Assembly (NCBI RefSeq): GCF_007830435.1
Contig: NZ_VLLC01000022.1
Coordinates: 7,856-60,327, forward strand
Reading direction: 5' to 3'
From: Desulfobotulus alkaliphilus
Lineage (GTDB): Bacteria; Desulfobacterota; Desulfobacteria; Desulfobacterales; ASO4-4
Length of the DNA: 52,472 nucleotides
The notes beneath the pieces were generated by a model that saw nothing but the letters and a program-made list of their open reading frames with translations, was not told where the DNA came from and ran no database searches. The translations under genes and the position numbers were made by a program. Below, one piece after another: positions 2,974 to 17,574 of this stretch (position 1 is its first letter; every line of letters starts with the position of its first letter).

Positions 2974-3354
2974 TCAGGCGCCCCTGCGGTACTCTTTAAG
3001 CATCTCCAGCTCTTTTGGATTCAGGTTGGATAATAAAAGAGACATTCTGCGGATGGGAATATGGGAGAAGGACATGACCGGTTCAAAAATCTGGTCCGCA
3101 ACAATGGAATACTGGTGCGACTGGAGCCGGAAGTAGAGATTTTTGCAGCTCAGTATGAGAGCTTCGTTGGTGTGCGGAGACTTGGCTGGCCAATGCAGAT
3201 TGGATACATAGGAAAATGAAAGGCCAGCATCGCTGATGTCAAGAACCTGCCCGATGCGTATGGGATTGGAATTTAGAATGGCAACCGCATTGGGAAGGGC
3301 TTTGAATCTCGTGTGCCTGCGCCTTTCAGCGCCTGCCGGGGGGATCTCGCTCAT
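2974..3354 (-). CDS. PilZ-domain protein (putative cyclic-di-GMP receptor)
   Basis: Small single-domain PilZ protein. The c-di-GMP-binding signatures are visible: the arginine-rich RRRHTR at residues 11-16 (RxxxR) and DISDAG at 39-44 (D/NxSxxG). PilZ proteins commonly control motility or polysaccharide export, which fits a place inside a polysaccharide locus; its target is unknown. I used the ATG at 3354, preceded by AGGAC, because PilZ domains normally start near the RxxxR motif. In-frame ATGs at 3426 (AGGAC nine bases upstream) and 3435 would add 24-27 residues without recognisable features. It converges on wbpO. A GGCCTG/CAGGCC hairpin lies between the two stops. Confidence 0.8.
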   Translation of the reverse strand: MSEIPPAGAERRRHTRFKALPNAVAILNSNPIRIGQVLDISDAGLSFSYVSNLHWPAKSPHTNEALILSCKNLYFRLQSHQYSIVADQIFEPVMSFSHIPIRRMSLLLSNLNPKELEMLKEYRRGA

Positions 3355-3512
3355 GGTTTGTGTCCTGTGTGCATCGTTAAATGTTTGCTGATATATCAAC
3401 TGAATATTAAAGCATATTGTTTTCATAGATACCATGTCCTATATATAAAAAACAAGTCGATTTTATGAATATTTATCGGGAAAGCACACAGGCCTTTTTG
3501 CTGAGAGTGTAG

Positions 3513-3575: not shown

Positions 3576-4598
3576 ATGAAAATACTGGTAACGGGTGGTG
3601 CGGGCTACATTGGCACCCATACCCTTGTGTCGCTTCGGCAAAGTGGTTTTGATGTCCTTGTGCTGGATAATTTTTCCAACAGTTCTCCCGTGTCTCTGGT
3701 CCGTGTGGCTGAAATAACGGGAAAGCCCGCATCCTTTGTTGAGGGAGATGTCCGGGACAGGGAGCTTCTGGCATCGGTTTTTGAAGAGCACCGCATCCAT
3801 GCGGTGATTCACTTTGCGGGTCTTAAGGCTGTGGGGGAGAGTGTGGAAAAGCCCCTTGCCTATTATGATAACAATGTGTACGGAACGCTGGTCCTGTGTC
3901 AGGCCATGGCAGAAGCCGGGGTTTTCCAGCTTGTGTTCAGTTCTTCCGCAACGGTTTACGGAGAGCCGGATACCATGCCCATCCGTGAAGATTTCCCCAC
4001 AGGCAGGCCCTCCAACCCCTATGGCCGGTCCAAGCTGATGGTGGAAGAGATTCTTAAAGATCTCAGCCTTTCCGATTCCCGCTGGTCCATCGCCCTTCTG
4101 CGGTATTTCAATCCTGTGGGTGCCCATGAAAGCGGTCTTATCGGTGAAGACCCGGCAGGAATACCCAATAATCTCCTGCCCTATATCAGTCAGGTAGCCG
4201 TGGGGCGGCTTGAGCGTCTGGCCGTTTACGGCAATGACTATCCCACGGCAGATGGTACGGGTGTGAGGGATTATATCCATGTCATGGACCTTGCTATGGG
4301 CCATGTAAAGGCCCTGCGCGCCATTGTCCAGCAGCAGGGCGTTGGTGTCTGGAATCTTGGTACGGGCAGGGGAACATCCGTTCTGGAGATGATCTCTGCC
4401 TTTGAAGCCGCATCCGGCAAAAAAATTCCCCATACCTTTGCGCCCCGAAGACAGGGGGATATTGCTGCCTGCTGGGCAGATCCATCCAAAGCCCAAAAAG
4501 AACTGGGATGGAAGGCCGAAAGAAACCTTGTGGATATGATGCAGGACACCTGGCGCTGGCAGTCAGGGAATCCGGATGGGTATGGTGATATCGTATGA
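3576..4598 (+). CDS. galE: UDP-glucose 4-epimerase
   Basis: Interconverts UDP-glucose and UDP-galactose using bound NAD, supplying galactosyl donors for polysaccharide. Signature residues: GGAGYIG at 7-13, SSSATVYG at 123-129, and catalytic Y149/K153 in YGRSK, followed by LRYFNPVGAHESG, a strong GalE hallmark. The length of 340 aa is typical. The start is preceded by AGGAAA. Its TGA overlaps the next ATG (ATGA at 4595), coupling it to the nucleotidyltransferase gene and so to the RiPP-like cluster. It differs clearly from the WbpP-type epimerase at 261, so the locus holds two distinct 4-epimerases. Confidence 0.96.
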   Translation: MKILVTGGAGYIGTHTLVSLRQSGFDVLVLDNFSNSSPVSLVRVAEITGKPASFVEGDVRDRELLASVFEEHRIHAVIHFAGLKAVGESVEKPLAYYDNNVYGTLVLCQAMAEAGVFQLVFSSSATVYGEPDTMPIREDFPTGRPSNPYGRSKLMVEEILKDLSLSDSRWSIALLRYFNPVGAHESGLIGEDPAGIPNNLLPYISQVAVGRLERLAVYGNDYPTADGTGVRDYIHVMDLAMGHVKALRAIVQQQGVGVWNLGTGRGTSVLEMISAFEAASGKKIPHTFAPRRQGDIAACWADPSKAQKELGWKAERNLVDMMQDTWRWQSGNPDGYGDIV

Positions 4599-5779
4599 AC
4601 TTGTCCTTTAAAAATCAGCTTCTTTGTGATGCCTTGAAAGCACAGATGCATGGCCGGTCATTTGTCTGGCCATCCGGTCTGCCCGAAGGTTTCTGGGATG
4701 AGCTGATGGCCGAAGCGGAAGATCAGGGCCTTTTTTTTCTCTTGGGCAGCTCTCTTTTGGAGGGCATGGATTTGTATGGAGACATGGAGGCTAAGGAAAA
4801 ATGCGCTGTAAGGCTCAAAGGATATGAAAATCGCTCCTTTCAGCTTTCCATAAAACTCCTTAAAATTCTCGGGCTGCTTCAGGCTGAAGGGATTGTTGCC
4901 GTACCTGTGAAGGGGCCTTTGCTCGCGGAATACCTGTACGGAGACGTGGCAAAAAGAACCTTTGCGGATCTGGATATTTTTATTTATGAAAAAGATCTTT
5001 TCAGTGCTGTGGAGATTCTGGAAAAGGCAGGGTATAGTCCTGAGCTGAAACTGAGTTCCCGTGAGATGAAGAAGTTTTCAAATCAGGAATATGATTTCAA
5101 GCTGTATGATGCAAAGTCCCACACCATTGTGGAGTTGCACTGGGAACTTTCAGGGAGATACACGAAAAAACCAATGATACTGGAAGATTATGCAGGAAGG
5201 CTAGAAAAGGCATCCGTTCTGGGCAAGGTGGTAGATAAACTCCCGGACTCCATTGATTTCATCTACCTCTGTCTGCATTCGGCCAAGCATTGTTTTGAGA
5301 GATTTGAAATGCTTTATGCCATTGCCATATATTATCAAAAGTTTTCAGAAGAAGAGCTGGACGCTCTGCTGGAAATCGTTTCCTCCATGAAGTGCAGGAA
5401 AATTTTTCTTTTTTCCCTTTATATGTGCCATAGACTACTCGGTCTTGATCTGTCAGGGCATATTACCTCAGAATCAGCCAGATATTCTTATTTCGACACA
5501 CTTGTGTGTCGCGTTCTTTATTTTATTGAAAACAGACATGATCTTTCCGATACAAGGTTTTCCACAACGCATATCCGTTTGCAGGACAGCGTTTTATTGA
5601 GGGGGGCTTTCATTTTTCGCTTGATTTTTACGCCAACATGTAAAGAATGGCATCTATTCAGGCTGCCTTATCGCCTTACCTTCCTCTACCGATGGATAAG
5701 GCCCTTTCGGCTTGCTGTGGCCTATGCGCAAAAGCGACTTTTTGCAAAGACTTCCGTCCGTACCGGAGGGCAGAGATGA
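4595..5779 (+). CDS. Nucleotidyltransferase-family protein (PF14907-like, NTP_transf_5)
   Basis: 394-aa protein of the uncharacterised nucleotidyltransferase family found in peptide-modification and exopolysaccharide clusters. The hallmark stretch is visible: VPVKGPLLAEYLYGD near residues 103-117, then FADLDIFI with candidate metal-binding D125 and D127, then a VELHWEL motif. The C-terminal half is helical and family-specific. Chemistry and substrate are unproven. In RiPP loci of the paeninodin kind, such genes sit beside HPr-kinase-like genes and have been suspected of acting on the phosphorylated peptide. Both ends overlap neighbours by ATGA (galE upstream, HprK-like gene downstream), indicating tight co-translation. 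Confidence 0.8.
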   Translation: MNLSFKNQLLCDALKAQMHGRSFVWPSGLPEGFWDELMAEAEDQGLFFLLGSSLLEGMDLYGDMEAKEKCAVRLKGYENRSFQLSIKLLKILGLLQAEGIVAVPVKGPLLAEYLYGDVAKRTFADLDIFIYEKDLFSAVEILEKAGYSPELKLSSREMKKFSNQEYDFKLYDAKSHTIVELHWELSGRYTKKPMILEDYAGRLEKASVLGKVVDKLPDSIDFIYLCLHSAKHCFERFEMLYAIAIYYQKFSEEELDALLEIVSSMKCRKIFLFSLYMCHRLLGLDLSGHITSESARYSYFDTLVCRVLYFIENRHDLSDTRFSTTHIRLQDSVLLRGAFIFRLIFTPTCKEWHLFRLPYRLTFLYRWIRPFRLAVAYAQKRLFAKTSVRTGGQR

Positions 5780-6672
5780 ACCAGAAAAATTACCGTGTAG
5801 GGGATATCCGTATTCGCTTGTATTCAGAACTTGAAATTACTGATAAAACCTTTGCTCCGAAGTTTGCCTTGTTTGAGGACACAGGGGGGCCTGCGGAAGA
5901 CGAGGTTGTGCTGCGCCATCACTTCCATATTCCAGAACTGGATGCACATGGTTTTGAAAAAAAGGTATATGAGAAATCACCGTGGGTGATTTATAAAAAT
6001 GGGGATCAGTGGGTGTATATCCTTGAAACCAGCCCTGATCCGGATAAAAAAGAAATCCGTCAGCTCACCATTTTCAATAGGGACCACACGGAAGCAGATA
6101 TCTACAATGGAGAGTTGAACAGCCGGGCCTGGCTCAATGGCGGGATGGGGTCTCTGACCCTTGCACCTACGGATCAGATTTTTCTGTCCCGTGTCCTTGC
6201 GGACCGTAACGGCTGCTTTCTGCATTCAGATGGCATAAAGCTTGATGGCTCAGGTTTTCTTTTTGCCGGGCACTCCGGTGCAGGTAAATCCACCATTGCC
6301 ACCCTTTTGCAGGACAAGGCAGAAATCCTCTGTGACGACAGAATGATTATCCGGAAAAAAAGATCCGATGACAGATACCACATATACGGTAACTGGAGCC
6401 ATGGTACTTTGCCCATTGTTTCTCCGGCCTCTGCTCCCCTGAAAGCCCTTTTTTTCCTTGAGCAGTCACCGGACAATGCAATTCTTCCTTTAGATTCCCG
6501 CATGGATGCCATACAACGCTTCCTTGCCGTTCTCATAAAGCCCATGGTCACAAGGGACTGGTGGGAGAAAATGCTGGATCTGGCCGAAGATATCGTAGAT
6601 TCTGTTCCCTGTTACAGGTTGAAATTTGATAAAAGTGGAGATATCTACCAGCATATCCGGAAGCTGGTATGA
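5776..6672 (+). CDS. HPr kinase-like P-loop protein (RiPP/polysaccharide-associated)
   Basis: 298-aa protein with the C-terminal-domain fold of HPr Ser kinase/phosphorylase. Walker A is GHSGAGKST at residues 165-173, followed by an acidic CDDR near 186-189 that matches the kinase metal site. The N-terminal ~140 residues are not the canonical HprK domain. Relatives in lasso-peptide clusters (the PadeK/ThcoK type) phosphorylate a C-terminal serine of the precursor peptide; here that role is an inference. The ATG at 5776 overlaps the upstream TGA and follows GGAGGG, so the longer in-frame start at 5647 is rejected. It is followed by a 246-bp gap with a repeat, then the first radical SAM gene. 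Confidence 0.78.
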   Translation: MNQKNYRVGDIRIRLYSELEITDKTFAPKFALFEDTGGPAEDEVVLRHHFHIPELDAHGFEKKVYEKSPWVIYKNGDQWVYILETSPDPDKKEIRQLTIFNRDHTEADIYNGELNSRAWLNGGMGSLTLAPTDQIFLSRVLADRNGCFLHSDGIKLDGSGFLFAGHSGAGKSTIATLLQDKAEILCDDRMIIRKKRSDDRYHIYGNWSHGTLPIVSPASAPLKALFFLEQSPDNAILPLDSRMDAIQRFLAVLIKPMVTRDWWEKMLDLAEDIVDSVPCYRLKFDKSGDIYQHIRKLV

Positions 6673-6815
6673 ACTGGGCCGGTGTTTTTATTATATGAAA
6701 CCAAGGCCTGCTTAAGACTCCTTCTTCCATTGGGCTTATCTTCACCCACAGGTCGGATTTCAGAAATTCGGGGTGGGAATATGGAGAAAATGGTGGGCCA
6801 CAGACCTGCTTTTCT

Positions 6816-6838
6816 CCCTTCTCCCACTGGGAGAAGGG
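6816..6838. repeat. Dispersed palindrome (copy of the 1368-1390 element)
   Basis: CCCTTCTCCC (6816-6825), loop ACT and GGGAGAAGGG (6829-6838), followed by TCGGGGTC. The arms are the same as at 1368-1390. It lies in the untranslated gap 6673-6918 between the HprK-like and radical SAM genes. Confidence 0.7.
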
Positions 6839-6918
6839 TCGGGGTCCGTTGCCGGGTGCATTTAATATCGGAAGTTATTGTATGCGTAACAAGTTCTGTC
6901 CAGCAAGGTGGTAGGTTT

Positions 6919-8094
6919 ATGGCATCTGATTATATGAAGACGGAAAGTCTGGGGTCTTCTGCATCCTGGCCTGGAAAAAACAGCCTTTTGCCCCACCTTG
7001 ACATGGAACTTACGGAACGCTGTAACAACAGATGTATCCACTGCTATATCAATCAGCCGGAAAATGATGCCCAACTGAAGGTAAGGGAACTCTCCACAGA
7101 TGAGATTAAGGCTATTGTTAAAGATGCGGCAGGCCTTGGTTGCATGTCCATCCGTTTTACAGGAGGAGAACCCCTTCTGCGGGAAGATTTTTCTGAAATA
7201 TATCTTTTTACGAGAAGGCAGGGTATCCGTGTTACCCTGTTCACCAATGCAACCCTCATGGATGAAGCCCTCACGGATCTCTTTGTGAAATATCCACCGG
7301 GCAGCCCTGTGGAAGTTACCCTCTACGGCATGACTTCGGATAGCTATGAAGCCATATCCCTTGTAAAAGGCAGCTTTGCAAAGGCCATGGCAGGCATTGG
7401 CCTGTTAAGGAAAAAGGGGATTCCCTTTTATGTGAAAAGTATATACTTTAAGGGCCGGGAAGCGGATAAGGAGGCCTTTGCGGATTTTGTGGAAAAAGAT
7501 CTTTCAGCAGATACGCCACCGGCTTTTTCCATGAATTTTGATCTGAGGGCGAGAAGGGATATGCCCGCCAAGGTGGACTTCATTAAATCCCTGCGGGTTT
7601 CTCCTGAAGAATCTGTAGTGGCTCTGGAGAAATATAAAGATGCGTACATCAAAGACAGCAGGCGATTTGCCCGGAAGTTCATGGGGCCTGCCGGAGACAG
7701 GCTCTTTAACTGTGGCTGCGGCAAGGGCGGGAGTGTGGATGCCTATGGCTTTTTTCAGCCCTGTCTTCTTCTTCGTCACCCGGAATCGGTGTATGATTTA
7801 AAAAAGGGTTCCTTTAAACAGGCTCTGCAGGTCTTTTTTCCTGAACTGCGGGAAAAAATATCCACCAATGGAAAATATCTGCAACGCTGTGCAGGGTGTT
7901 TTCTCCATGGTTTCTGTGATCAGTGCCCGGCTAAATCCTGGATGGAACATGGCCTTCTGGATGAGCCGGTGGAATACTGCTGTGAACTTGCCCATGCAAA
8001 GGCACGCTTTCTTGGTCTTTTGGGTGATAAGGAAAGGGCATGGGAAGTAAAAGACTGGAAGGTCAGGCTTGACAGGTTTGTCACCCATGGGTGA
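6919..8094 (+). CDS. Radical SAM/SPASM peptide-modifying enzyme 1
   Basis: 391-aa radical SAM enzyme. The [4Fe-4S]/SAM motif CxxxCxxC is C35, C39, C42 (CNNRCIHC), followed by the SAM-binding FTGGEPLL. The C-terminal region has the cysteine pattern of a SPASM domain that binds auxiliary clusters: NCGCGKGG, then FFQPC, then RCAGCFLHGFCDQCPAKS and YCC. This architecture is typical of enzymes that install crosslinks or other changes on peptides, usually guided by a PqqD-like domain, which the next gene encodes. I chose the ATG at 6919 (AAGGTGG upstream). The in-frame start at 6682 would translate through the palindromic repeat. It is a paralogue of the enzyme at 8934. The modification chemistry cannot be told from sequence. 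Confidence 0.88.
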   Translation: MASDYMKTESLGSSASWPGKNSLLPHLDMELTERCNNRCIHCYINQPENDAQLKVRELSTDEIKAIVKDAAGLGCMSIRFTGGEPLLREDFSEIYLFTRRQGIRVTLFTNATLMDEALTDLFVKYPPGSPVEVTLYGMTSDSYEAISLVKGSFAKAMAGIGLLRKKGIPFYVKSIYFKGREADKEAFADFVEKDLSADTPPAFSMNFDLRARRDMPAKVDFIKSLRVSPEESVVALEKYKDAYIKDSRRFARKFMGPAGDRLFNCGCGKGGSVDAYGFFQPCLLLRHPESVYDLKKGSFKQALQVFFPELREKISTNGKYLQRCAGCFLHGFCDQCPAKSWMEHGLLDEPVEYCCELAHAKARFLGLLGDKERAWEVKDWKVRLDRFVTHG

Positions 8095-8124
8095 TATGTT
8101 CCTTTTTATGGAGGAAGATTTGTG

Positions 8125-8424
8125 ATGGAAATTGATGTGAATGCCGTTTACCTGCCTTCCGAGGATGTGGTGGCAAGAAAGATTGATGATGCCTTTATTC
8201 TGGTGCCCATTGCATCGGGTGTTGGTAGCATGGAGGATGAGCTTTATACCCTCAACGAAACGGGCCATATCATCTGGGAGGGCCTGGCTCCCGGCAGACG
8301 GGTGGTGGATCTGGCAAAATCCCTTGCAGAGGAATACGATGCTTCAGAAGAAGAGATAAGACAGGATATTCAGGGTATTCTGACAGAACTGTTAAAATTG
8401 AATATGATCCATAAAGATGGGTGA
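8125..8424 (+). CDS. PqqD-family leader-binding protein (RiPP recognition element)
   Basis: 99-aa PqqD-like protein. The family core is recognisable: a strand-rich N-terminus, the conserved LNETGHIIWEGL near residues 44-55, then a helical part with VDLAKSLAEEYD and a terminal helix. PqqD proteins bind the leader peptide and present the precursor to a radical SAM partner. It sits between two radical SAM/SPASM genes and could serve both. Start: AGGA at 8112-8115 is nine bases before ATG 8125; a GTG immediately upstream (8122) is a possible alternative. Its 3' end overlaps the S26 peptidase gene by 8 bp. Confidence 0.87.
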   Translation: MEIDVNAVYLPSEDVVARKIDDAFILVPIASGVGSMEDELYTLNETGHIIWEGLAPGRRVVDLAKSLAEEYDASEEEIRQDIQGILTELLKLNMIHKDG

Positions 8425-8887
8425 GCAGTGTTCGGAAACCCTGTCCTTTTCCGGAGAAGCCCTTCTCGAAGTGATGACGGCTGTTCTGGAAAATAAAGCC
8501 CTTTTCCGTTTTCAGGCAAAGGGTTTCAGCATGTCTCCCGTTATCAGGCATGGAGATATTCTGACCCTCGCATCTCTGGAAGGAGAGAAGCCTGGTGTTG
8601 GCGATGTGGTTGCCTTTAAAAATCCTTATTCACCCAATCTTGTTATCCATAGGATTGTTGCGAAAAAAAAGGGTGTTGGGTTCTGGATCAAAGGCGACAA
8701 CGGGAAGGATTGGGATGGTTTTTTTGAAGAAAAAAAGATCATGGCCAGGGTGGTGCGGGTGGAAAGAGGGGGGAAGAATGTTTGGTATGGCGGCTCTTTC
8801 ATCGCCCTTCTTTCCCGTTTTGGGGTGCTCACCCTGTTTGTCCCCTTGGTGAGACGGATGAAAAACAGCTTGCGGTTCATGGGCTGA
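8417..8887 (+). CDS. S26-type signal-peptidase-like protease (Ser/His form)
   Basis: 156-aa S24/S26-fold protease. The nucleophile motif is GFSMSP with S38. The second catalytic residue appears to be His, H78 in NLVIHRIV, followed by FWIKGDN near 89-95, as in SipW/Sec11-like enzymes rather than the Ser/Lys pair of LepB. There is no N-terminal membrane anchor; the only clearly hydrophobic stretch is near the C-terminus (FIALLSRFGVLTLFVPLV). Its place in the cluster makes it the best candidate for removing the leader of the peptide encoded at 10242, since the ABC exporter here has no peptidase domain. That role is inferred. It starts inside the PqqD gene. Confidence 0.82.
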   Translation: MGEQCSETLSFSGEALLEVMTAVLENKALFRFQAKGFSMSPVIRHGDILTLASLEGEKPGVGDVVAFKNPYSPNLVIHRIVAKKKGVGFWIKGDNGKDWDGFFEEKKIMARVVRVERGGKNVWYGGSFIALLSRFGVLTLFVPLVRRMKNSLRFMG

Positions 8888-8933
8888 GCGTCAGTTATTT
8901 GCGGAAAATTTTATGCTGGCTGGAGAAATAACA

Positions 8934-10046
8934 ATGTCCCTTTACATGGAAGCCCCGCAGAAACTTCCCGACTTCTGGCTCTGGGAGGAGAGAAGGAAGA
9001 AACAGGGCCTTGTATCCTTTACCTTAGAGCTGACTCCAAGGTGCAACAATGCCTGCAGGCACTGTTATATCAATCTGCCCGCAGGAGACGGGCAGGCAAG
9101 GGAAAGGGAGCTTGATTTTGATGGCATAAAAAAAATAGTTGATGAAGCCGCAGAACTCGGGGCCATGTGGTGTCTGATCACCGGCGGTGAGCCGCTGCTC
9201 CGGGAGGATTTTGAAGATATTTATCTGTATATTAAGCGCAAAGGGATTTTTGTAAGTGTTTTTACCAATGCCACCCTGATCAGCGAAAAGCATGTGCAGC
9301 TTTTTAAAAAATATCCGCCAAGGGCCCTTGAAATTACCGTTTATGGTGTTACGGAAAAAACCTACGGAGCTGTTACGGGAAAACCGGAGCTTTTTGCGGC
9401 CTTTATGCGGGGTGTGCGCCTGCTTCTGGACGCAGGGGTACCTCTGAGTCTCAAGACCGTTATGATCAGATCCAATGTCCATGAGTTTCAGGAAATAGCC
9501 GCTTTTTGCAGGGCACACAGCAGCGAGCCTTTTCGCTTTGATCCTTTCATTCATCTGCGTTTTGACAGGGATGAAAAAAGAAATCAGGAAATCAGGGAGG
9601 AAAGGCTTTCCCCCGAGGCCATTGTGGCCCTTGAGCACTCCGATAGTGCAAGGCATGATGCTTTACAGAAAAATTGTGAAAAGCTTGTATTTAATGAAGA
9701 TATGGACAATCCTGAAGGCTTTTTGTTCGGGTGCGGTGCTGGTATCTCAGAGTTTTATGTGAACCATGAGGGTTTTTTTATGCTTTGTGCTTCCCTTTAT
9801 GGTTCGGGTCTGCTATACGATTTAAAAAATGGAACCATAAAAAATGCCTTGGATGATTTTGTTCCAAAGATCAGGGCAATGCGTACGACAAAAACGGAAT
9901 ATATGGCAAACTGCGGCAGATGCCGTATCATTAATCTCTGTCTCTGGTGTCCGGCCCATGCATTTTTAGAGATGGGGCAGCTGGATGCTTGTGTGGATTA
10001 TTTCTGTAGTGTTGCAAAGGAAAGATATAAAAAAATGTTACTCTGA
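8934..10046 (+). CDS. Radical SAM/SPASM peptide-modifying enzyme 2
   Basis: 370-aa paralogue of the enzyme at 6919. The SAM cluster motif is C37, C41, C44 (CNNACRHC), followed by ITGGEPLLREDF. The SPASM-type cysteines are GCGAG, FFMLC, NCGRC...LCLWC and FC near the C-terminus. The two enzymes share long blocks (GGEPLLREDF, TNATL, KYPP) but differ in the substrate-facing parts, suggesting two sequential or different modifications of the same peptide. I chose ATG 8934, with GGAGA seven bases upstream, over ATG 8913, which lacks a good ribosome site. After its stop comes an AT-rich 195-bp gap with a GATAAAACC/GGTTTTATC inverted repeat (10120-10128/10161-10169), then the candidate precursor. Confidence 0.88.
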   Translation: MSLYMEAPQKLPDFWLWEERRKKQGLVSFTLELTPRCNNACRHCYINLPAGDGQARERELDFDGIKKIVDEAAELGAMWCLITGGEPLLREDFEDIYLYIKRKGIFVSVFTNATLISEKHVQLFKKYPPRALEITVYGVTEKTYGAVTGKPELFAAFMRGVRLLLDAGVPLSLKTVMIRSNVHEFQEIAAFCRAHSSEPFRFDPFIHLRFDRDEKRNQEIREERLSPEAIVALEHSDSARHDALQKNCEKLVFNEDMDNPEGFLFGCGAGISEFYVNHEGFFMLCASLYGSGLLYDLKNGTIKNALDDFVPKIRAMRTTKTEYMANCGRCRIINLCLWCPAHAFLEMGQLDACVDYFCSVAKERYKKMLL

Positions 10047-10199
10047 TAAAAAAGTGTTTAATATTGAGTGATGGTTTTTGAGGAGATAATTGCTGATGAT
10101 ATCTTTCCCGTTAGGCATAGATAAAACCTCGGTTTTTTGGAAGGTAATTGAAAAAGAATTGGTTTTATCGAGTATGTTTTGAATTTTTTTGTCATATGT

Positions 10200-10228
10200 T
10201 TGAAATTTTTTTAAAAAACAAATAAAAT
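10200..10228 (+). promoter_or_regulatory. Possible promoter upstream of the candidate precursor
   Basis: TTGAAA (10200-10205), 17 bp, TAAAAT (10223-10228). The spacing is ideal, but the surrounding DNA is very AT-rich. The -10 also abuts the AGGAGG ribosome site, so a start there would cut into it. Chance occurrence is quite possible. Confidence 0.22.
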
Positions 10229-10241
10229 AGGAGGTATTGGC

Positions 10242-10430
10242 GTGGAGAAAAAACAATGGATTAAACCAGCTCTTAGCATTTTGGTTAAAGGGACCCCGGA
10301 AGAGGCTGTTTTGTTTGGTTGTAAAAATGCAAGGTTTATTCAGTTGGGGCCTGGGTCTGGATCTGAGGGGGGGGGAGGAGATATAAGTTGTGGATGGATT
10401 GCGTTTTGCAGAAGAAGTCAAGATACTTAG
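10242..10430 (+). CDS. Candidate RiPP precursor peptide
   Basis: 62-residue peptide starting at GTG, with a consensus AGGAGG (10229-10234) seven bases upstream. Residues 1-28 look like a leader: basic N-terminus, W6, P9, hydrophobic LSILVKG, acidic PEEAVL and a Cys-Lys pair at C27-K28. Residues 29-62 look like a core: GPGSGSEGGGG linker, then D47-I-S-C50 GWIAF C56 RRSQDT. The two cysteines bracket a five-residue hydrophobic segment. It lies directly after two radical SAM/SPASM genes and before an ABC exporter. I recall similar K-W-KP...PEE-VL--CK peptides beside PqqD/radical SAM genes but can name no formal family. Codons for residues 42-45 contain a run of nine G (10367-10375). Confidence 0.72.
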   Translation: MEKKQWIKPALSILVKGTPEEAVLFGCKNARFIQLGPGSGSEGGGGDISCGWIAFCRRSQDT

Positions 10431-10587
10431 GTTCTTTCCCGTTTTATAAGGCTATATGGTTTACGTAGTGCTTGAAGGAAAATGATGAAAAATATATATC
10501 GGCAGTACAAATAAGGAATTGTATTTTAGGGTATTTTCAATCCCGGAAATGATTAGTGTTAGCTTTGAAACTGTTTTGTTTTTAATA

Positions 10588-10606
10588 ATAGCCTTTTTAA
10601 GGCTAT
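10588..10606 (+). promoter_or_regulatory. Perfect hairpin abutting the ABC exporter ribosome site
   Basis: ATAGCCTT, loop TTT, AAGGCTAT: a perfect 8-bp stem that ends one base before AGAGG (10607-10611), which would serve the TTG start at 10617. No U-tract follows, so it is not a terminator. It could end the precursor mRNA by processing or modulate exporter translation. AAGGCTATA also occurs earlier in the gap, near 10449. Confidence 0.35.
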
Positions 10607-10643
10607 AGAGGACTATTTGAAAAGGTTTATTAGGATCCGTCTC

Positions 10644-12440
10644 ATGCTCCGGCTTGATCGGGCCGTTCTGTTTGTATTTAGAGCTGCTCCCTGGATCAGT
10701 CTGGCTGCCCTTGTCCTGTCCCTGATATCAGGGCTGCTGCCTTTGGCAGGGTTGTATCTGATAAAGCTTATTGTGGATGGCCTGACCCTTGTCGTTCAGT
10801 CCGGAGACAGCGGAGATTTTTATCCGGTATTTTATCTTGTCGTCCTTGCAGGGCTTGTGGCCATTGCCCAGCATTTGCTGGCAAGCCTCAGTGCCTATCT
10901 GGCTTCCAGTCAGGGGATGAAGGTTTCAGACTATGTTCTGGACGTACTTCATAAAAAATCCGTAGAACTGGATCTTTCATTTTATGAAAATCCAAAATAT
11001 TACAATACCCTTTACAGGGCGCAGCAGGAAGGCCCCTACAGGCCGGGAAAAATTGTAAGCGGGCTGACAAATGTCTTTCAGAACTTTTTTTCCCTCCTTG
11101 CCATAGGTGGGCTTCTTTTGTTTCTGCACTGGGGTTTTGCCCTGATACTTGTGCTGGCCGTATTGCCGTCGCTTTTTGTTCGTTTCATGTTTTCTGGTAT
11201 TCTTTATAAGTGGTACCAGAAAAAAACCCCTCTGGAGCGGGAGGCCGGTTACCTGAGCTGGCTTCTGACCGGTTATCCCAATGCCAGAGAAATTCGTCTT
11301 TTTAACCTTGGCGGATGGTTTTCAGGGCTTTTTTCAGAGATAAGAAGCAAATTGAGGATCGAAGAGCTCGGTATCCAGAAAAAGCAGCACCTGTGCGAAG
11401 GTCTTGCTGCAGCATTATCGGCTGCAGCCGTTTTTACGGCCATGGGCTATGCCGTGTATCAGGCGGGAACTGGCAAAATGACCATTGGTGATATGGTCAT
11501 GTTTTATCAGGCCTTTCAACGTGGCATGACGCATCTGAAAGGTTTTTTTGAAGGATTGGCAGGGCTTTACGAAGACAATCTTTTTATTTCATATTTCTAT
11601 GATTTTCTGGATCTTCAGACTGAAATAAAAGATGTGGATAATCCTTCAGAATTTCCGGATTCTTTGAAAAGTGGTATCATTTTTGACAATGTGAGTTTTG
11701 CCTATCCCGGTTCAGAAGAAAAGGTTTTAAAAAATATTTCCTTTGAAATCAAAAAAGGAGAAATATGTGCCGTTCTGGGAGAAAACGGGGCTGGCAAGTC
11801 AACCATCGCAAGGCTTTTATCCCGGCTTTATGATCCTGTGGAAGGAAAGATTGAAATTGACAGCGTGAATCTCAAATGCTACAAAATCACAGAATTCAGA
11901 AAAAAGACGGCGGTCATGCTGCAGGATTTTGCAAAATATCATTTTACGGTGAATGAAAATATCCGTTTGGGAAATATTGATATTGACAGGGCCGATCAAT
12001 ACCTTATCCGTGCCGCCGCCATGAAGGCAGGAGCCCACGACTTTGTGAACCGTTTACCCCGTGGTTATGATACCGTACTGGGAAAAATGTTCCATGACGG
12101 CATGGAAATCAGTCAGGGAGAGTGGCAGAAAGTGGCTCTCGCAAGGGTTTTTGCAAAGGAAGCTCCCATCGTGATTCTGGATGAACCCGCCAGTTCCATG
12201 GATGTGGAAAGCGAATATCTTATTTTTCAGAAGATGAAAACTCTTCTGAAAGGAAAGACCGGAATCATCATCAGCCATCGTTTTGCTACCGTAAAGTCTG
12301 CCGATAAGATTATCGTACTAAAGAAAGGTGAAGTGGCTGAATCCGGTACCCATGACAGCTTGATGGAGAAAAAAGGTCTGTATTGTTCATGGTACACCAA
12401 GCAGATGCAGGTGCATACCCAAGGGGATACCCATGATTAA
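10644..12440 (+). CDS. ABC exporter, fused permease-ATPase
   Basis: 598-aa type I ABC exporter half-transporter. Six hydrophobic segments in the first ~310 residues are followed by an ATPase domain: Walker A GENGAGKST at 379-387, a signature region ISQGEWQKVALAR (degenerate LSGGQ) and Walker B IVILDEPASSMD. The N-terminus lacks a C39 peptidase domain, so any leader must be removed by another enzyme, plausibly the S26 protease at 8417. The likely substrate is the modified peptide encoded just upstream, although polysaccharide-related export cannot be excluded. Start: ATG 10644 has AGGA eight bases upstream; a TTG at 10617 with AGAGG is a credible alternative. It overlaps galU by 8 bp. Confidence 0.85.
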   Translation: MLRLDRAVLFVFRAAPWISLAALVLSLISGLLPLAGLYLIKLIVDGLTLVVQSGDSGDFYPVFYLVVLAGLVAIAQHLLASLSAYLASSQGMKVSDYVLDVLHKKSVELDLSFYENPKYYNTLYRAQQEGPYRPGKIVSGLTNVFQNFFSLLAIGGLLLFLHWGFALILVLAVLPSLFVRFMFSGILYKWYQKKTPLEREAGYLSWLLTGYPNAREIRLFNLGGWFSGLFSEIRSKLRIEELGIQKKQHLCEGLAAALSAAAVFTAMGYAVYQAGTGKMTIGDMVMFYQAFQRGMTHLKGFFEGLAGLYEDNLFISYFYDFLDLQTEIKDVDNPSEFPDSLKSGIIFDNVSFAYPGSEEKVLKNISFEIKKGEICAVLGENGAGKSTIARLLSRLYDPVEGKIEIDSVNLKCYKITEFRKKTAVMLQDFAKYHFTVNENIRLGNIDIDRADQYLIRAAAMKAGAHDFVNRLPRGYDTVLGKMFHDGMEISQGEWQKVALARVFAKEAPIVILDEPASSMDVESEYLIFQKMKTLLKGKTGIIISHRFATVKSADKIIVLKKGEVAESGTHDSLMEKKGLYCSWYTKQMQVHTQGDTHD

Positions 12441-13254
12441 AAAATGTCTTTTTCCGGCAGCAGGTTACGGCACCCGTTTTCTGCCAGCAACCAAGGCCAT
12501 GCCCAAGGAAATGATGCCCATTGTCAACAAACCGCTCATTGAGTATGGTGTGGAAGAGGCTCTTCAGGCATGCATGACCGATATGTGCATTGTTACCGGA
12601 CGTGGTAAAAATGCCATTCTGGATCATTTTGATATGAACTATGAGCTGGAACACCAGATATCCGGTACCAGAAAAGAAGAACTGCTGGCGGATATCCGTG
12701 CCATCATTGACAAAGCCAACTTCACCTATATCCGTCAGCGGGAGATGAAGGGGCTGGGCCATGCCATTCTGACGGGGCGTGCTCTGGTGGGAGACAATCC
12801 CTTTGCCGTATTGCTGGCCGACGATCTGTGCATCCATCCGGAAGAAGGTGTGCTTTCCCAGATGGTGGCACTGTATAAGCAGTTCCGTTGCTCCATTGTG
12901 GCCGTGGAAGAGGTTCCCGAGGGTGAAACCCATAAGTATGGGGTGATTGCCGGAAAGACCCTGACCGACAGGCTGGTGTCCGTGGAAGACATGGTGGAAA
13001 AGCCGGAACCGGGAACAGCCCCCAGCAACCTTGCCATTATTGGGCGTTATATTCTTACCCCGGATATTTTCGATATTCTTGAGAAAACGCCACCCGGTAA
13101 AAATGGTGAAATCCAGATTACCGATGCCCTGATGCAGCAGGCAAAATCCGGTTGTGTTATTGCCTATAAGTTTAAGGGCAGGCGTTTTGATTGTGGTGCC
13201 GTGGATGGCTATATTCAGGCCACCAATTACTGCTATGAGAATTTTTATACTTAA
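12433..13254 (+). CDS. galU: UTP-glucose-1-phosphate uridylyltransferase
   Basis: Makes UDP-glucose from UTP and glucose-1-phosphate. The family signature opens the protein, PAAGYGTRFLPATKAMPKEM, followed by VEEALQA, KGLGHAI, LLADD and the C-terminal GAVDGYIQA. 273 aa is slightly short but normal for bacterial GalU. Its ATG lies 8 bp inside the end of the ABC exporter gene, which links the peptide cluster to the polysaccharide operon. The product feeds galE upstream and probably the priming sugar transferase that follows. Confidence 0.95.
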   Translation: MIKKCLFPAAGYGTRFLPATKAMPKEMMPIVNKPLIEYGVEEALQACMTDMCIVTGRGKNAILDHFDMNYELEHQISGTRKEELLADIRAIIDKANFTYIRQREMKGLGHAILTGRALVGDNPFAVLLADDLCIHPEEGVLSQMVALYKQFRCSIVAVEEVPEGETHKYGVIAGKTLTDRLVSVEDMVEKPEPGTAPSNLAIIGRYILTPDIFDILEKTPPGKNGEIQITDALMQQAKSGCVIAYKFKGRRFDCGAVDGYIQATNYCYENFYT

Positions 13255-13282
13255 AGATCGGCTATTGGGAGTAAGTAAATTT

Positions 13283-14725
13283 ATGCTCAGGGAAAATGCC
13301 AGAGCCTTTAACGGCCTTCACAGACTGACGGATCTCTTTCTGACAGCCCTTGCCTTTGGTATTGCCTACCTTTTAAAAATTGCCCCTTCTTCCGGTGTAC
13401 TCGGTGGGCTTTCCCGCAACCCGGATTATGGCATGGTCTTTTTTATCATCCTTGCCATATGGTATCTGGTTTTTGATCTTAATAATAACTATGCTCCTTT
13501 CCGGGAAAGAAACCTGCTGTCGATTCTACTGAATCTTTATAAATCCATCCTCTTTTCCTTTATGGTTTTTTCCCTTGTGATTTATCTTTTAAAAATTGAG
13601 CATCTGAGCCGAAGCCTCATGCTGATTTTTCTTGCCCTTAACGTAGGGATTTTAACCCTTTCCAAGGTTTCCGTTTTTTACACCTTAGCCCGTATTCGCA
13701 GGAAGGGGTATAATTATAAAAATATCCTTGTGGTGGGCAGCAGGACCCGTGCAGAAAAGTTTATCCGTTCCGTTCTGGATAAAAAGGATGCAGGGTACCG
13801 TATTTCTGGGTGTCTGGATACGGATCATTCTTATATGGGTAAGCAGGTGGTGGGCAATATCTGCGTCACGGGCTGCATAGAAGATCTGAAAAATATCCTT
13901 GAGAATGAGGTGGTGGATGAGCTGGTTTTTGCCATGCCCCTTAAAAAAATAGATAATGCCGATGCCTATATTGCCATGGCAGAGGATATGGGGGTAAAAT
14001 GCCGGATTATTCCAGACTGGCAGCTGCATTACCTCATGTACAAACCGGATACGGCCACCATCCGTTTTGAGACCTTTCTGGGTACACCCAGCATGGCCCT
14101 GCACATGATCACCAACAATGACAGGCTGCTGGTTTATAAATATTTTTTTGATTATGTGTTTTGTCTTGTGGCCTTTGCTCTCTTGCTGCCCTTTTTTATC
14201 CTGACAGCCGCCGCCATTAAGCTCTTTTCAAAGGGTCCGGTTTTTTATAAACAGAAACGCATTGGGCTCCATGGCAGGGTTTTTGAGGTGTATAAGTTCC
14301 GTACCATGGTGGTTGATGCAGATAAAATGCTGGAGCAGCTTAAAGATCTGAACGAGGCCGATGGTCCGGCCTTTAAAATCAGAAAAGACCCCAGGGTCAT
14401 TCCATGGGTTGGTACTTTTTTAAGGAAAACCAGCCTGGATGAGTTGCCCCAGATCATCAACATCTTAAGGGGAGAAATGAGCCTTGTGGGCCCAAGACCA
14501 CCCCTTCCCAATGAGGTGGCAGAGTATGAAATCTGGCAGCGGCGCAGGCTTTCCATGAAACCGGGTCTTACCTGTATCTGGCAGATTGCCCCTGAAAGAA
14601 ATGATATCCGCTTTGATGAGTGGATGAAGATGGACTTGCACTACATTGATAACTGGTCGATGTGGTTGGATTTTACCCTAATTTTCAGGACCATCAAGTC
14701 TGTGCTGACGGGTGCTGGAAGATAA
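13283..14725 (+). CDS. Polyprenyl-phosphate sugar-1-phosphate transferase (EPS priming enzyme)
   Basis: 480-aa polyisoprenyl-phosphate hexose-1-phosphate transferase of the WbaP/WcaJ type, which loads the first sugar on undecaprenyl phosphate at the inner membrane. The N-terminal half has four hydrophobic helices and a nucleotide-binding-like (CoA_binding_3) region with NILVVGSRTRAEKFI. The C-terminal catalytic domain has the last membrane helix, then KQKRIGLHGRVFEVYKFRTM, the DELPQ motif and SLVGPRPPLPNEV. I used ATG 13283, preceded by GGGAG; earlier in-frame starts (13154, 13235) overlap galU without ribosome sites. The sugar is probably glucose, given galU next door, but that is inference. 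Confidence 0.9.
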   Translation: MLRENARAFNGLHRLTDLFLTALAFGIAYLLKIAPSSGVLGGLSRNPDYGMVFFIILAIWYLVFDLNNNYAPFRERNLLSILLNLYKSILFSFMVFSLVIYLLKIEHLSRSLMLIFLALNVGILTLSKVSVFYTLARIRRKGYNYKNILVVGSRTRAEKFIRSVLDKKDAGYRISGCLDTDHSYMGKQVVGNICVTGCIEDLKNILENEVVDELVFAMPLKKIDNADAYIAMAEDMGVKCRIIPDWQLHYLMYKPDTATIRFETFLGTPSMALHMITNNDRLLVYKYFFDYVFCLVAFALLLPFFILTAAAIKLFSKGPVFYKQKRIGLHGRVFEVYKFRTMVVDADKMLEQLKDLNEADGPAFKIRKDPRVIPWVGTFLRKTSLDELPQIINILRGEMSLVGPRPPLPNEVAEYEIWQRRRLSMKPGLTCIWQIAPERNDIRFDEWMKMDLHYIDNWSMWLDFTLIFRTIKSVLTGAGR

Positions 14726-14736
14726 AAGGAGGATGT

Positions 14737-15285
14737 ATGAAGAGAATAGTTGCTGCCATGGTTTTATCTTTTTTCCTTGTTTCATCTGTTTTTGCTGCAA
14801 CGGTCTGGCATCAGAATTTTTTTTCCACGATTAAATCTGACGGTTATGAACAGGCTGTAAAAGAAGCCCTGACTGCGGGTGTATCCATTGAAGATATTGT
14901 GGATATTTCTTCCAAATTGGGTTATCAGGGACTTTTTATTTTTGCCTCCATTTACAATGCTAGCGGTAATAGTGGCGATGTTCTGGATGCTGCCCTTGAA
15001 ACATCCCTGGGACAGGATTTTGAGCGGGAGTCTGTGCTGGCTTTAAGCTCTGCGGATCTGGCTTTTCTTGTGGCTTCCGGTGATATTTATGTACCCTCAT
15101 TGAGTGAGTTGGAACTGAATTATCTTACATATTATGGACTGGCTCTTCAGGCAGGCGATGAAGAGGTACAGGGGCAGGGGCTTGGTTTTGGTGATGATCC
15201 TGTTCTGGCTGTAGGAGATATTACCATGGGCGATGTTGGTTTTGGCGGTATGAATAACAGCTCAGTTTCTCCTGCGGCCCCCTGA
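14737..15285 (+). CDS. Small secreted protein of the EPS operon, unknown function
   Basis: 182-aa protein with a clear Sec signal peptide (MKRIVAAMVLSFFLVSSVFA, cleavage probably at FAA). The start has a perfect AAGGAGG. The mature part is acidic, begins with helical segments (EQAVKEALTAGVSIEDIV) and ends in a Gly/Asp-rich tail, GFGGMNNSSVSPAAP. I recognise no family. It lies between the priming transferase and the outer-membrane barrel, so it is likely an envelope component of polysaccharide export. Oddity: in the -1 frame just past the stop the DNA encodes a tail ending ARIVVPVIFFWLLKK and a stop at 15352; a single-base loss in the C5 run at 15278-15282 would fuse it to this protein. Confidence 0.75.
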   Translation: MKRIVAAMVLSFFLVSSVFAATVWHQNFFSTIKSDGYEQAVKEALTAGVSIEDIVDISSKLGYQGLFIFASIYNASGNSGDVLDAALETSLGQDFERESVLALSSADLAFLVASGDIYVPSLSELELNYLTYYGLALQAGDEEVQGQGLGFGDDPVLAVGDITMGDVGFGGMNNSSVSPAAP

Positions 15286-15376
15286 CGAACTCAGCAACAG
15301 CAGGGCAAGGATTGTAGTGCCCGTGATTTTTTTCTGGTTGCTCAAAAAATAATAAAAAATATATGAGGATAAGAGA

Positions 15377-16621
15377 ATGGGGAAAAAGATTACAGGCATT
15401 CTTTTAATGTTTATTTTTGCCCTCCCAGTTTTTGCACAAGAAATTACAGGAGATATTTTTGGCCAGCAGCGTCGCAATATTCATCCTGCTGCTTCTTTAA
15501 GTTTTCAGTATACAGACAATCTTTATAACGCCGATAAAGATAAGGAATCTGATTTTTTAACGGTGTTTTCTCCTTCCATTGCACTGTCTGTACCGGGCAG
15601 CAGAACCGTTGATATTGCCATGGCGTCCGATACGGGAGCCCCCGGTGGGTTGAGTCTTTCAAGGGACCGTATTGATTCGACGGATCGGTATCATCTTTTT
15701 ATGATATATAATCCAAAGGCGGAGTTTTACGCAGATAACAGTGATGAAAATCTTGTGTCCCATACCCTGAAGGCAGCAGCGCAATACAATGCACCCGGTG
15801 GTCTTACCCTGGATCTGGCATCCAGATACGCCAAGTCCAGTGAGGTCCGCGGTGAAGTAGGGAACAGAGATCTTGATGAATATAAAGACATGCTGCTGGA
15901 TGCAATTATCCGGTATGATTTTTCTCCTAAGATGTTTGTCCGGGGAGGTTTTTCCGTCTATGACCTGGATTATGACAGGGAAGAGTCGGCATTCAGAAAC
16001 CGAAGGGATTTAACATGGTCCGTTGCTGCCGGATACAGGCTGACTGCCGCAACGGAGCTTGCCCTTGAATATCAGAAAACCGATGTTGATTATGACAGGT
16101 CAGCAGAAGACGGAAGACCTCTATACGATAGTCAGGAGGAGCGCGTTTCTGCAAACCTGTCTTGGCGTATTACTGCAAAATCCAGGGGGCGATTGAAAAT
16201 TGGTCAGATAAAAAAGTCCATGGACAAAGGATCTGATGCAGATGATCTTTTTGCAGAATTTCATCTGGCCCACCAGTTTACCACAAGAACCCGCCTTGAT
16301 GTTGCTGCATCCAGGCGTTACTATGAAACCAATTTTGCTGATGCTGATTATTATATTTCTGACAGAATTGGTCTGGTATACTCCCAGGAGCTTACGCCGA
16401 GAATTAAAGGTAAAATGCGACTGGACTGGAATTCGGACAGTTACTCCGGTTCTACTAAAATGGAAAATGATATTTACCGCATCAACCCTTCCTGTGAGTA
16501 CAGTCTGAATAACTGGCTTTCCATGGAGGCTGGTTATTCCTATGAAACAAGAAATTCAACGTATGATAATCTGGAGTATGACACCAATAAGTTTTATTTC
16601 AGTATTACAGGTCAGTTTTAG
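15377..16621 (+). CDS. Outer-membrane beta-barrel protein of the EPS system
   Basis: 414-aa protein with a signal peptide (MGKKITGILLMFIFALPVFA) and many alternating amphipathic strands separated by charged turns (for example GRLKIGQIKKS, ISDRIGLVYSQ). It ends in phenylalanine (FYFSITGQF), the usual C-terminal signature for BAM-dependent outer-membrane insertion. It resembles the putative beta-barrel porins (BBP2-type) that accompany Wza/Wzc-like genes in delta- and other proteobacterial exopolysaccharide operons, where they may form or support the export pore. Function is inferred from context. The gene is followed by a strong hairpin-plus-T element. Confidence 0.82.
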   Translation: MGKKITGILLMFIFALPVFAQEITGDIFGQQRRNIHPAASLSFQYTDNLYNADKDKESDFLTVFSPSIALSVPGSRTVDIAMASDTGAPGGLSLSRDRIDSTDRYHLFMIYNPKAEFYADNSDENLVSHTLKAAAQYNAPGGLTLDLASRYAKSSEVRGEVGNRDLDEYKDMLLDAIIRYDFSPKMFVRGGFSVYDLDYDREESAFRNRRDLTWSVAAGYRLTAATELALEYQKTDVDYDRSAEDGRPLYDSQEERVSANLSWRITAKSRGRLKIGQIKKSMDKGSDADDLFAEFHLAHQFTTRTRLDVAASRRYYETNFADADYYISDRIGLVYSQELTPRIKGKMRLDWNSDSYSGSTKMENDIYRINPSCEYSLNNWLSMEAGYSYETRNSTYDNLEYDTNKFYFSITGQF

Positions 16622-16650
16622 AATGCGTGAAATATAGATTTAATATCTGC

Positions 16651-16690
16651 GCAGTCTGCCCGCTATGGACGGGTGGGCTGCTTTCTTTTT
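16651..16690 (+). terminator. Intrinsic terminator/attenuator inside the EPS operon
   Basis: A 12-bp stem (16651-16662 with 16670-16681, including three G-U pairs) and a 7-base loop are followed by TTTCTTTTT (16682-16690). The Shine-Dalgarno GCGAGG of the next gene starts immediately after. There is no room for a promoter in between, so transcription of the Wza-like gene must read through this element. Confidence 0.65.
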
Positions 16691-16702
16691 AAGCGAGGTT
16701 TC

Positions 16703-17509
16703 ATGGCATTACGTTTTTTTTACATAATTTTGTATTTCTTCCTTGCTTTTGGGACTGCCTGTTCTCTTGCGCTTGCGGATAATTATACTGTGGGGCCGGG
16801 GGATAATCTGGATATTACCGTTTATGATCATAAGGATCTTTCGGTTAAATCCAGAGTGGCAGGGGATGGTACCATTCGTTTTCCTTTGATCGGTGAATTT
16901 AATGTTCTCGGGAAAACACCCTCAGAAATTTCTGTCATGATAGAAAGAAAGCTGGGCGATGGGTATATACTGAACCCTCAGGTTGCTGTTTCCATGAGCG
17001 AGTACAGAAGCAGAAAAGCAACCATACTGGGGGAGGTGGATAAGCCGGGGCTTTATGATCTTGTGGGCAGGGTTTTTCTGCTGGAACTGATTTCCAAAGC
17101 CGGGGGACTGGGTAAAGATGCTGGAAGGGAAATCATCATTACAAGAAACTTCATGGAAGAAGAAAGTCCCGGACAGGAGGTAATAAGAATAGACTTGCGA
17201 CGCCTTGTGGAAGAAGGCGATTTGAGTCAGAATATTTTAATTATGAATGGTGATAATGTTTTTATTCCTCAGGTGGACAAGATTTATGTGACAGGAGAAG
17301 TAAGAAGACCTGCCTCATATCAGTACGATAAAGATCTGACGCTGATTCAGGTAATCACCAATGCAGGAGGTCTTACGGATAAAGCTTCTGCCAGAAATAT
17401 TCGCATTATCCGTGAAAAAAATGGAGAAAAGAAGGTGATTCGGAGAGTGCCCATGGATGCAAGGGTACTGCCCAATGATGTGGTCGTTGTGCCGGAAAGT
17501 TTCTTTTAA
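16703..17509 (+). CDS. Polysaccharide export protein (Wza/OPX family)
   Basis: 268-aa secreted outer-membrane polysaccharide exporter. After an N-terminal hydrophobic signal (ALRFFYIILYFFLAFGTACS) comes the Poly_export domain, opening YTVGPGDNLDITVYDHKDL. Two SLBB-type segments follow, KATILGEVDKPGLYDL and KIYVTGEVRRPASYQY. A cysteine occurs near the end of the signal region (TACS), so lipidation is possible though not certain. ATG 16703 has GAGG five bases upstream; an earlier in-frame GTG at 16673 lies in the terminator stem and is rejected. It acts with the BY-kinase encoded next to span the envelope. Confidence 0.9.
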   Translation: MALRFFYIILYFFLAFGTACSLALADNYTVGPGDNLDITVYDHKDLSVKSRVAGDGTIRFPLIGEFNVLGKTPSEISVMIERKLGDGYILNPQVAVSMSEYRSRKATILGEVDKPGLYDLVGRVFLLELISKAGGLGKDAGREIIITRNFMEEESPGQEVIRIDLRRLVEEGDLSQNILIMNGDNVFIPQVDKIYVTGEVRRPASYQYDKDLTLIQVITNAGGLTDKASARNIRIIREKNGEKKVIRRVPMDARVLPNDVVVVPESFF

Positions 17510-17574
17510 AGTAATTTTTGATGATTTTTTTCGGGTATTAATATTGCCTGCAAAGTATGGGGATCAATTCTATT

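Follow-up and report, generated by a model that had tools for sequence, protein, structure and literature searches.

What product is specified by a set of genes that resembles in part those tailoring lasso peptides and in part those of radical S-adenosylmethionine (SAM) peptide chemistry? The question is raised by eight adjacent genes at 4595-12440, all on the + strand, within a 52,472-nucleotide stretch of the Desulfobotulus alkaliphilus genome that we refer to as the window; the set lies on contig C23 of the 4.0-Mb draft genome. The original prediction, made from the sequence alone, had read these genes as a cluster for a ribosomally synthesized and post-translationally modified peptide (RiPP), and had called a nucleotidyltransferase, an HprK-like kinase, two radical SAM/SPASM enzymes, a PqqD-like protein, an S26 protease, a 62-aa peptide, and an ABC exporter. 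Open reading frame (ORF) calls together with Pfam/NCBIfam searches bear out all eight product types, the kinase through the fold of its model. We judge it reasonably probable that the genes form a RiPP cassette in which a lasso-like front end is combined with radical SAM chemistry directed at Cys and the product ends in a phosphorylated Ser or Thr, the chemistry being predicted. The gene content, the identity of the precursor, the conservation of the peptide with its enzymes, the C-terminal motif, and the association of a fused domain with a third Cys are established. The Cx5[ST] end motif, the kinase-fused third radical SAM domain, and the relation to SynChlorMet cassettes are additions to the earlier reading.

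The case for a RiPP begins with the peptide. The precursor gene (10242-10430, +) encodes 62 aa, beginning at a GTG that follows a GGAGG by seven bases, and its product divides, at an approximate boundary, into a leader of about residues 1-28 (containing W6-x2-P9-x-L11 and, later, EEAVLFGCK) and a core of about residues 29-62. No Pfam or NCBIfam model matched it at E 0.01. When the peptide was used as a query against 96 genomes of the order, we recovered short frames alike over the first 28-39 residues, and the flanking 2-3 kb of every one of the five best matches (L027-L031) contained genes for the same type of radical SAM protein. Across thirteen such peptides, taken from the window and from relatives, ten residues do not vary: K4, P9, E20, E21, V23, L24, C27, K28, C50, and C56 in the window numbering. 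A model seeded with the leader columns, and then refined with the leaders that it had itself matched, gave 100 distinct precursors in related loci; because only leader columns were used, the C-terminus was outside the selection. The leader motif [WY]xxPx[LIVM] is found in 97 of these and [WY]xxPxL in 87, the post-leader core is variable in sequence and spans 1-51 aa (incomplete ones counted) with a median of 31, and a locus has up to five precursors. We scanned 93 sequences, namely the window peptide and 92 of the 100, having manually excluded the five that lack a terminal Ser or Thr and also, for no good reason, three others (from L062, L121, and L063). The scan returned one match to Rhodanese_C (0.0052), two to a lasso model (best 0.003), and one to the paeninodin family (0.0093); the precursor family is covered by no Pfam or NCBIfam model. 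A short precursor is kept beside modifying enzymes, as is expected of a RiPP cluster, and this conservation shows that the 62-aa peptide is the product of a real precursor gene.

The enzymes recur together as well. A kinase-pattern survey of GTDB genome contigs matched 276 stretches, 238 of them encoding a relative; from the best 80 we derived 78 named loci. Nearly all of these are metagenome-assembled, with binning errors possible, and they come from Omnitrophota, Thermodesulfobacteriota, Myxococcota, Chlorobiota, Actinomycetota, Acidobacteriota, Aminicenantes, methanogens, and other lineages. Among the 53 named loci that span 11 kb or more, radical SAM/SPASM enzyme 1 (rSAM1) is present in 49, PqqD in 47, radical SAM/SPASM enzyme 2 (rSAM2) in 47, the S26-type peptidase in 45, the precursor in 44, the nucleotidyltransferase in 26, and the ABC exporter in 21, and the series HprK-rSAM1-PqqD-S26-rSAM2 is a recurring cassette. 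Homologous loci lacking any short peptide had been named beforehand as grounds for giving up the RiPP reading; with a precursor in 44 of 53 loci, and the peptide family conserved beside the enzymes, that reading and the choice of the 62-aa peptide as substrate are supported. The collection puts names to the precursors of a radical SAM cassette type shared by many phyla, methanogens and uncultured lineages included.

The most regular feature of the precursors is their last residue. Of the 100, 95 have a C-terminal Ser (87) or Thr (8). For comparison, either residue occupies 520 of 2965 other core positions, and 875 of 5878 control short ORFs from the same loci end in one of the two. The longer motif Cx5[ST] closes 76 of the 100 precursors and only 22 of the 5878 control ORFs; these counts per precursor, like those for Cys below, treat related sequences as independent. 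In the window the motif is C-RRSQD-T (10407-10427, +), the proposed kinase site, and ends in Thr62 and not in Ser. Seven precursors (L133, L136, L138, L149, L151, L152, and L158) have no cassette gene in their loci of about 3 kb, the cassette being elsewhere in the genome (for L138, on the same contig with the kinase about 16 kb away). All seven end in Ser, six of them as Cx5S, which suggests that one enzyme set serves several peptides encoded elsewhere. Across the phylum we sampled 395 genomes, for each of which part of the first-look candidates was scored: the precursor model matched in 17, the kinase model (E<=1e-25) in 18, and both in 16, an overlap beyond chance. In the precursor-only genome (G439) the match lies inside a 329-aa frame and there is a weak kinase match (E 4.6e-9), and the two kinase-only genomes have divergent Ser-ended peptides beside the kinase (E 0.02 and 0.2, judged partly by eye). 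The precursor model found, in these 395 genomes, no convincing kinase-free genome that could serve as a control for the C-terminal Ser. In a divergent subtype (L189 10802-10999, L190 3704-3874, L192 8586-8753, and L191 8864-9022), which has a single radical SAM enzyme and leaders of the [KP]YEKP type, the peptides likewise end in Ser.

The protein that we propose to act on this residue is the HprK-like kinase (5776-6672, +; 298 aa), a stand-alone protein in the window. It scores under the cut-off of every family listed for it (PF07475, 18.2 of 33.3; TIGR04249, 50 of 125). Its AlphaFold2 model, made with 75 sequences (the window kinase and 74 of 78 kinase segments), has a mean pLDDT of 94.7 and aligns with a PEPCK structure at Z 12.4 over 235 residues (root-mean-square deviation 5.6). 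HPrK is outside the 50 matches listed in that Z-score search and is present in a second structure search, which gave PEPCK at E 2.2e-6 (TM 0.37) and HPrK 1ko7 at E 1.9e-5 (TM 0.23). The model thereby indicates an HPrK/PEPCK P-loop kinase fold. H150, K171 (the P-loop Lys), and D187 are present in 75 of the 75 kinases and D188 in 73. Lasso kinases are described in a review as having a His-Lys-Asp-Asp motif, named there without positions (PMC9266682). The four residues appear to fit this motif, with positions that we assigned from conservation, the P-loop, and the alignment with the kinase of L208, a paeninodin-family lasso cluster from the same phylum. The same review has kinases of the paeninodin type (PadeK and ThcoK) phosphorylating the C-terminal Ser of lasso precursors (PMC9266682). 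From this likeness, and from the near-invariant C-terminus, the kinase probably phosphorylates the side chain of the last residue of the peptide, Thr62 in the window, as PadeK and ThcoK do.

Several observations weigh against this assignment. The TM-scores of the kinase to solved structures, taken over the query, are low, and the L208 lasso kinase aligns only weakly with the cassette kinase family (E 0.0015). Five of the 100 precursors do not end in Ser or Thr: two each in L059 and L063, all four without the usual C[KR] where the leader ends, and one, from L090, that ends in SP. The kinase-adjacent peptide of L156 ends in Y. In an alternative reading the kinase targets a different residue, and the conserved C-terminal Ser/Thr has some other use, such as recognition by a radical SAM enzyme or the exporter, or the closing of a ring onto the end. 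The BsfK kinase is reported to act on Ser3 of a lasso core and not on the C-terminus (PMC10368454); the SynChlorMet cassette of L188 and the Butyrivibrio cassette described below have kinases and peptides that do not end in Ser or Thr; and the fixed spacing from Cys(-7) to Ser(-1) could mark a ring. We nevertheless consider this alternative unlikely, given that the precursor of L208, the one paeninodin-family cluster that we examined, ends in Ser, that the C-terminal Ser is the phosphorylated site of the paeninodin type in the review cited above (PMC9266682), and that Thr replaces Ser in 8 of the 100 precursors, as a hydroxyl acceptor would predict. We thus retain phosphorylation of the terminal Ser or Thr as the preferred reading.

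The second strand of evidence ties the radical SAM enzymes to the core cysteines. In the window rSAM1 (6919-8094, +; 391 aa; Radical_SAM 83.4 bits) has the motifs CNNRCIHC and CAGCFLHGFCDQC, and rSAM2 (8913-10046, +; 377 aa; Radical_SAM 89.0 bits) has CNNACRHC and CGRCRIINLCLWC, so that both carry CxxxCxxC and a SPASM-like CxxCx5CxxC. Two radical SAM enzymes here accompany two core Cys residues, C50 and C56, besides the Cys at the leader end. Elsewhere, 58 of 93 kinase ORFs are at least 450 aa long (a count that includes the duplicate contigs L086=L042, L103=L041, L106=L046, L127=L044, and L096=L039), and all eight whose domains were listed have an N-terminal radical SAM domain; CxxxCxxC occurs in 54 of the 58 long ORFs and in none of the 35 short ones. 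At least three core Cys residues are found in 55 of 57 precursors with a fused domain in the locus, compared with 3 of 28 without. This comparison covers 85 of the 100 precursors, leaving out five without C[KR], five in loci with two kinases, three with a kinase at a contig edge, one without a kinase ORF, and one that is not Ser/Thr-ended. Counted by locus, the figures are 34 of 35 for fused kinases and 3 of 23 for unfused ones. On a tree of the kinase domain for 58 loci, from which the duplicates were dropped, fusion changes at least 10 times, and of eight independent pairs contrasting fusion with the third Cys seven agree, none opposes, and one ties (sign test p 0.016).

This association has its own weaknesses. 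The pairs are one greedy choice on a tree in which 18 of 82 branches are starred, and the starred branches give only one independent pair, too few to test (one locus was miscounted in that run). The one-enzyme loci L099 and L111 have one core Cys and L048-L050, L115, and L118 have two, and in L042, where the third radical SAM-like protein is not fused, the core has two Cys residues; because of these loci the relation of enzyme to Cys is not strictly one to one. Covariation nonetheless leads us to suggest that, in relatives, the third radical SAM enzyme would serve the third cysteine. The two enzymes of the window probably cross-link the core, most likely by thioether links that would join core cysteines. 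Two predictions arise, namely a phosphate on the terminal Ser or Thr, and one extra modified Cys wherever a locus has the third radical SAM domain. As a tentative proposal, on which our opinion is almost evenly divided, these loci may represent a widespread RiPP class of bacteria and methanogens, with a lasso-type front end, made up of PqqD, a YxxPxL leader, a kinase for the C-terminal Ser, and a phosphate-modifying nucleotidyltransferase, and with modular Cys-directed radical SAM enzymes, in which each kinase-fused domain would mean one more modified Cys and the Cx5-Ser/Thr tail would be phosphorylated and possibly glycosylated or nucleotidylated. As a separate observation, in four loci PqqD adjoins an extra ORF of about 275-290 aa (L040 7257-8120, L041 5039-5884, L195 11339-12166, and L196 9371-10222); these ORFs are mutually alike and, by eye, methyltransferase-like. 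In L042 the radical SAM-like protein (11655-12563) is at the place of this extra ORF.

PqqE and SkfB are among the nearest solved structures for both radical SAM proteins of the window. The layout for PQQ comprises PqqD and a radical SAM/SPASM enzyme, and this likeness, with PqqE so near, would allow the peptide to be consumed into a small cofactor, like PQQ or mycofactocin. We give this possibility hardly any weight: the cores vary in sequence and length, a locus may have five precursors with others remote from the enzymes, and an exporter is present. SkfB points to the sactipeptides and ranthipeptides, which likewise combine a Cys-containing precursor with SPASM radical SAM enzymes, and the core Cys residues and SPASM-like motifs that such chemistry needs are present here. 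Unlike them, the cassette adds a kinase, a nucleotidyltransferase, and an S26-type peptidase, and its thioether is a prediction; no sactipeptide or ranthipeptide precursor model matched at E 0.01 among the 93 precursors scanned. A modified peptide that leaves the cell thus remains our preferred product.

The remaining genes complete the proposed pathway. The PqqD-family leader-binding protein (8122-8424, +; 100 aa; PF05402 54.0 bits) has lasso PqqD models as its best NCBIfam matches, below their cut-offs (NF033530, 33.1 of 70), and by homology would bind the 62-aa precursor through the leader W-x-x-P-x-L, as in lasso peptides. The nucleotidyltransferase (4595-5779, +; 394 aa) matches PF14907 at 142.5 bits (cut-off 31.2), which we take to be the family of the lasso nucleotidyltransferases. 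It may act on the phosphorylated C-terminus and add a further group to the phosphate, a tentative suggestion that leans on PsmN of pseudomycoidin as described in the review (PMC9266682). The S26-type peptidase (8417-8887, +; 156 aa) matches PF00717 at 23.8 bits (cut-off 23.3) and also TIGR02228 at 47.5 bits, below the cut-off of 51.85, and is a candidate for leader removal. The ABC protein (10617-12440, +; 607 aa; ABC_tran 105.6 and ABC_membrane 35.2 bits), in which membrane and ATPase parts are fused, would export the product; no C39 peptidase family is among its Pfam matches.

How close is this cassette to the systems it resembles? With paeninodin and pseudomycoidin (PadeK, ThcoK, PsmK/PsmN) it shares PqqD, the [WY]xxPxL leader, an HprK-like kinase, a Ser-ended precursor, a nucleotidyltransferase, and an ABC exporter. 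The lasso leader motif is given as YxxPxL in one report (PMC10368454), and a leader of this type with a PqqD partner is what the cassette has, although the PqqD scores to lasso models are below cut-off. L208 has, besides its Ser-ended precursor, relatives of the window nucleotidyltransferase (181 bits), ABC exporter (432), and PqqD (29). The call of lasso-type tailoring genes therefore stands, with the leader motif, the His, Lys, and two Asp of the kinase, and the near-universal C-terminal Ser/Thr behind it. Unlike the lasso systems, the cassette has radical SAM/SPASM enzymes, an S26-type peptidase, and a Cys-rich core, with no B2 protease or cyclase. The B2 family PF13471 was unmatched in the draft genome (G000) and was matched on the lasso contig (C5) of the positive control genome G184; the sole asparagine-synthetase (PF00733) match in the draft genome is on contig C3, away from the cassette on C23. 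The claim that a lasso cyclase is missing accordingly holds, and we rejected a lasso cluster, as the genome has no B2 family match and the contig no cyclase. The combination suggests that the lasso phosphorylation module can be joined with a different core-forming chemistry.

SynChlorMet cassettes (TIGR04249, TIGR04250, and TIGR04251) are nearer in content, having an HprK-like ScmC, two radical SAM/SPASM enzymes, a PqqD-like protein, a nucleotidyltransferase, and an ABC protein. The window kinase matches ScmC, and both of its radical SAM proteins match ScmE (84.7 and 76.3 of 400) and ScmF (74.5 and 76.6 of 400), so that membership of SynChlorMet in the strict sense (TIGR04249-TIGR04251) had to be considered. 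A Methanothrix contig (L188) allowed a direct comparison: its true ScmC (162 of 125 bits) and its ScmE and ScmF, near cut-off (362 and 339 of 400), belong to a set of comparable content (a nucleotidyltransferase, two PqqD-like proteins, two radical SAM enzymes, a kinase, and an ABC protein), yet this set is a separate cassette that stands beside one of the window type on the same contig. Two alike small ORFs there (3231-3425 and 3854-4057, both -), which have KKAYEPPRAMRLGDMRNGAG in common and three Cys residues, are candidate SynChlorMet precursors of a different kind from ours; to our knowledge, the NCBIfam text has the SynChlorMet precursor as unidentified. With all window Scm scores far below the curated cut-offs, and a best ScmC E-value across the 75 kinases of 1.7e-13, which is the window's own, strict membership is very unlikely, and we rejected it on the cut-offs (ScmC 50/125, ScmE/ScmF at most 84.7/400). 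From these comparisons the cassette is best read as a sister of SynChlorMet and not as a member. The L188 candidates end in V and A, and this weighs against a general rule joining the kinase to a terminal Ser outside the family of the window.

The plasmid pNP243 of Butyrivibrio fibrisolvens (L207 7644-9667) has in series a kinase, a 57-aa Cys-rich peptide, PqqD, and an S24/S26 peptidase. It shares with the cassette the kinase type (62 bits to the 75-kinase profile), the YxxPxL leader, the Cys-rich peptide, the PqqD-S24/S26 pair, and a nucleotidyltransferase; on the opposing side, the peptide ends in W and the 16-kb stretch has no annotated radical SAM gene. We found no description of the window's cassette in the open PMC literature, a search whose scope took in little of subscription journals and preprints.

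Fine-scale structure of the locus called for one correction. The genes had been described as "many overlapping by 4-8 bp", which is too strong because only two junctions inside the set overlap, by 4 bp at 5776-5779 and by 8 bp at 8417-8424. The set also overlaps its neighbours at either end (galE/nucleotidyltransferase, 4 bp; ABC/galU, 8 bp). Gaps of 246, 27, and 25 bp precede rSAM1, PqqD, and rSAM2, and the precursor gene is flanked by gaps of 195 bp (5') and 186 bp (3'). The kinase start is most likely 5776, because of the ATGA overlap with the nucleotidyltransferase gene and a GGAGG upstream, and that of rSAM1 is most likely 6919 (391 aa). Scans around the peptide gave nothing usable, with one promoter-like site (2.0 expected) and two overlapping terminator-like sites (0.4 expected), which fall within the first part of the ABC gene.

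The genomic setting of the cassette differs between congeners. In L204 and L205 the counterpart of the gene at 2974-3435, which we take to be PilZ-like, adjoins galU, and galE and the cassette are absent; positions 3576-12440 thus occupy a site that is empty in both congeners. The G+C content of this segment is 0.463, lower than the 0.524 of the sequence preceding it and close to the 0.473 of that following it. Directly downstream (13154-22809) is an exopolysaccharide locus with polyprenyl glycosylphosphotransferase, EpsL-like, EpsE/Wza-like, and Wzc-like genes, and exopolysaccharide genes are also near several related cassettes. We rejected polysaccharide modification as the main role: only 20 of the 101 loci compared have, within the stretch compared, a match to any of nine window genes for exopolysaccharide or sugar-nucleotide functions (two contigs being doubled in the 20), and two congeners have the flanking genes without the cassette. 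An interspersed repeat fills part of the gap before rSAM1 (6720-6856), where it probably has no role in the cassette; it occurs also at 1362-1396, and partial matches to it are present at four further genomic sites, on contigs C18, C24, and C5 and elsewhere on C23.

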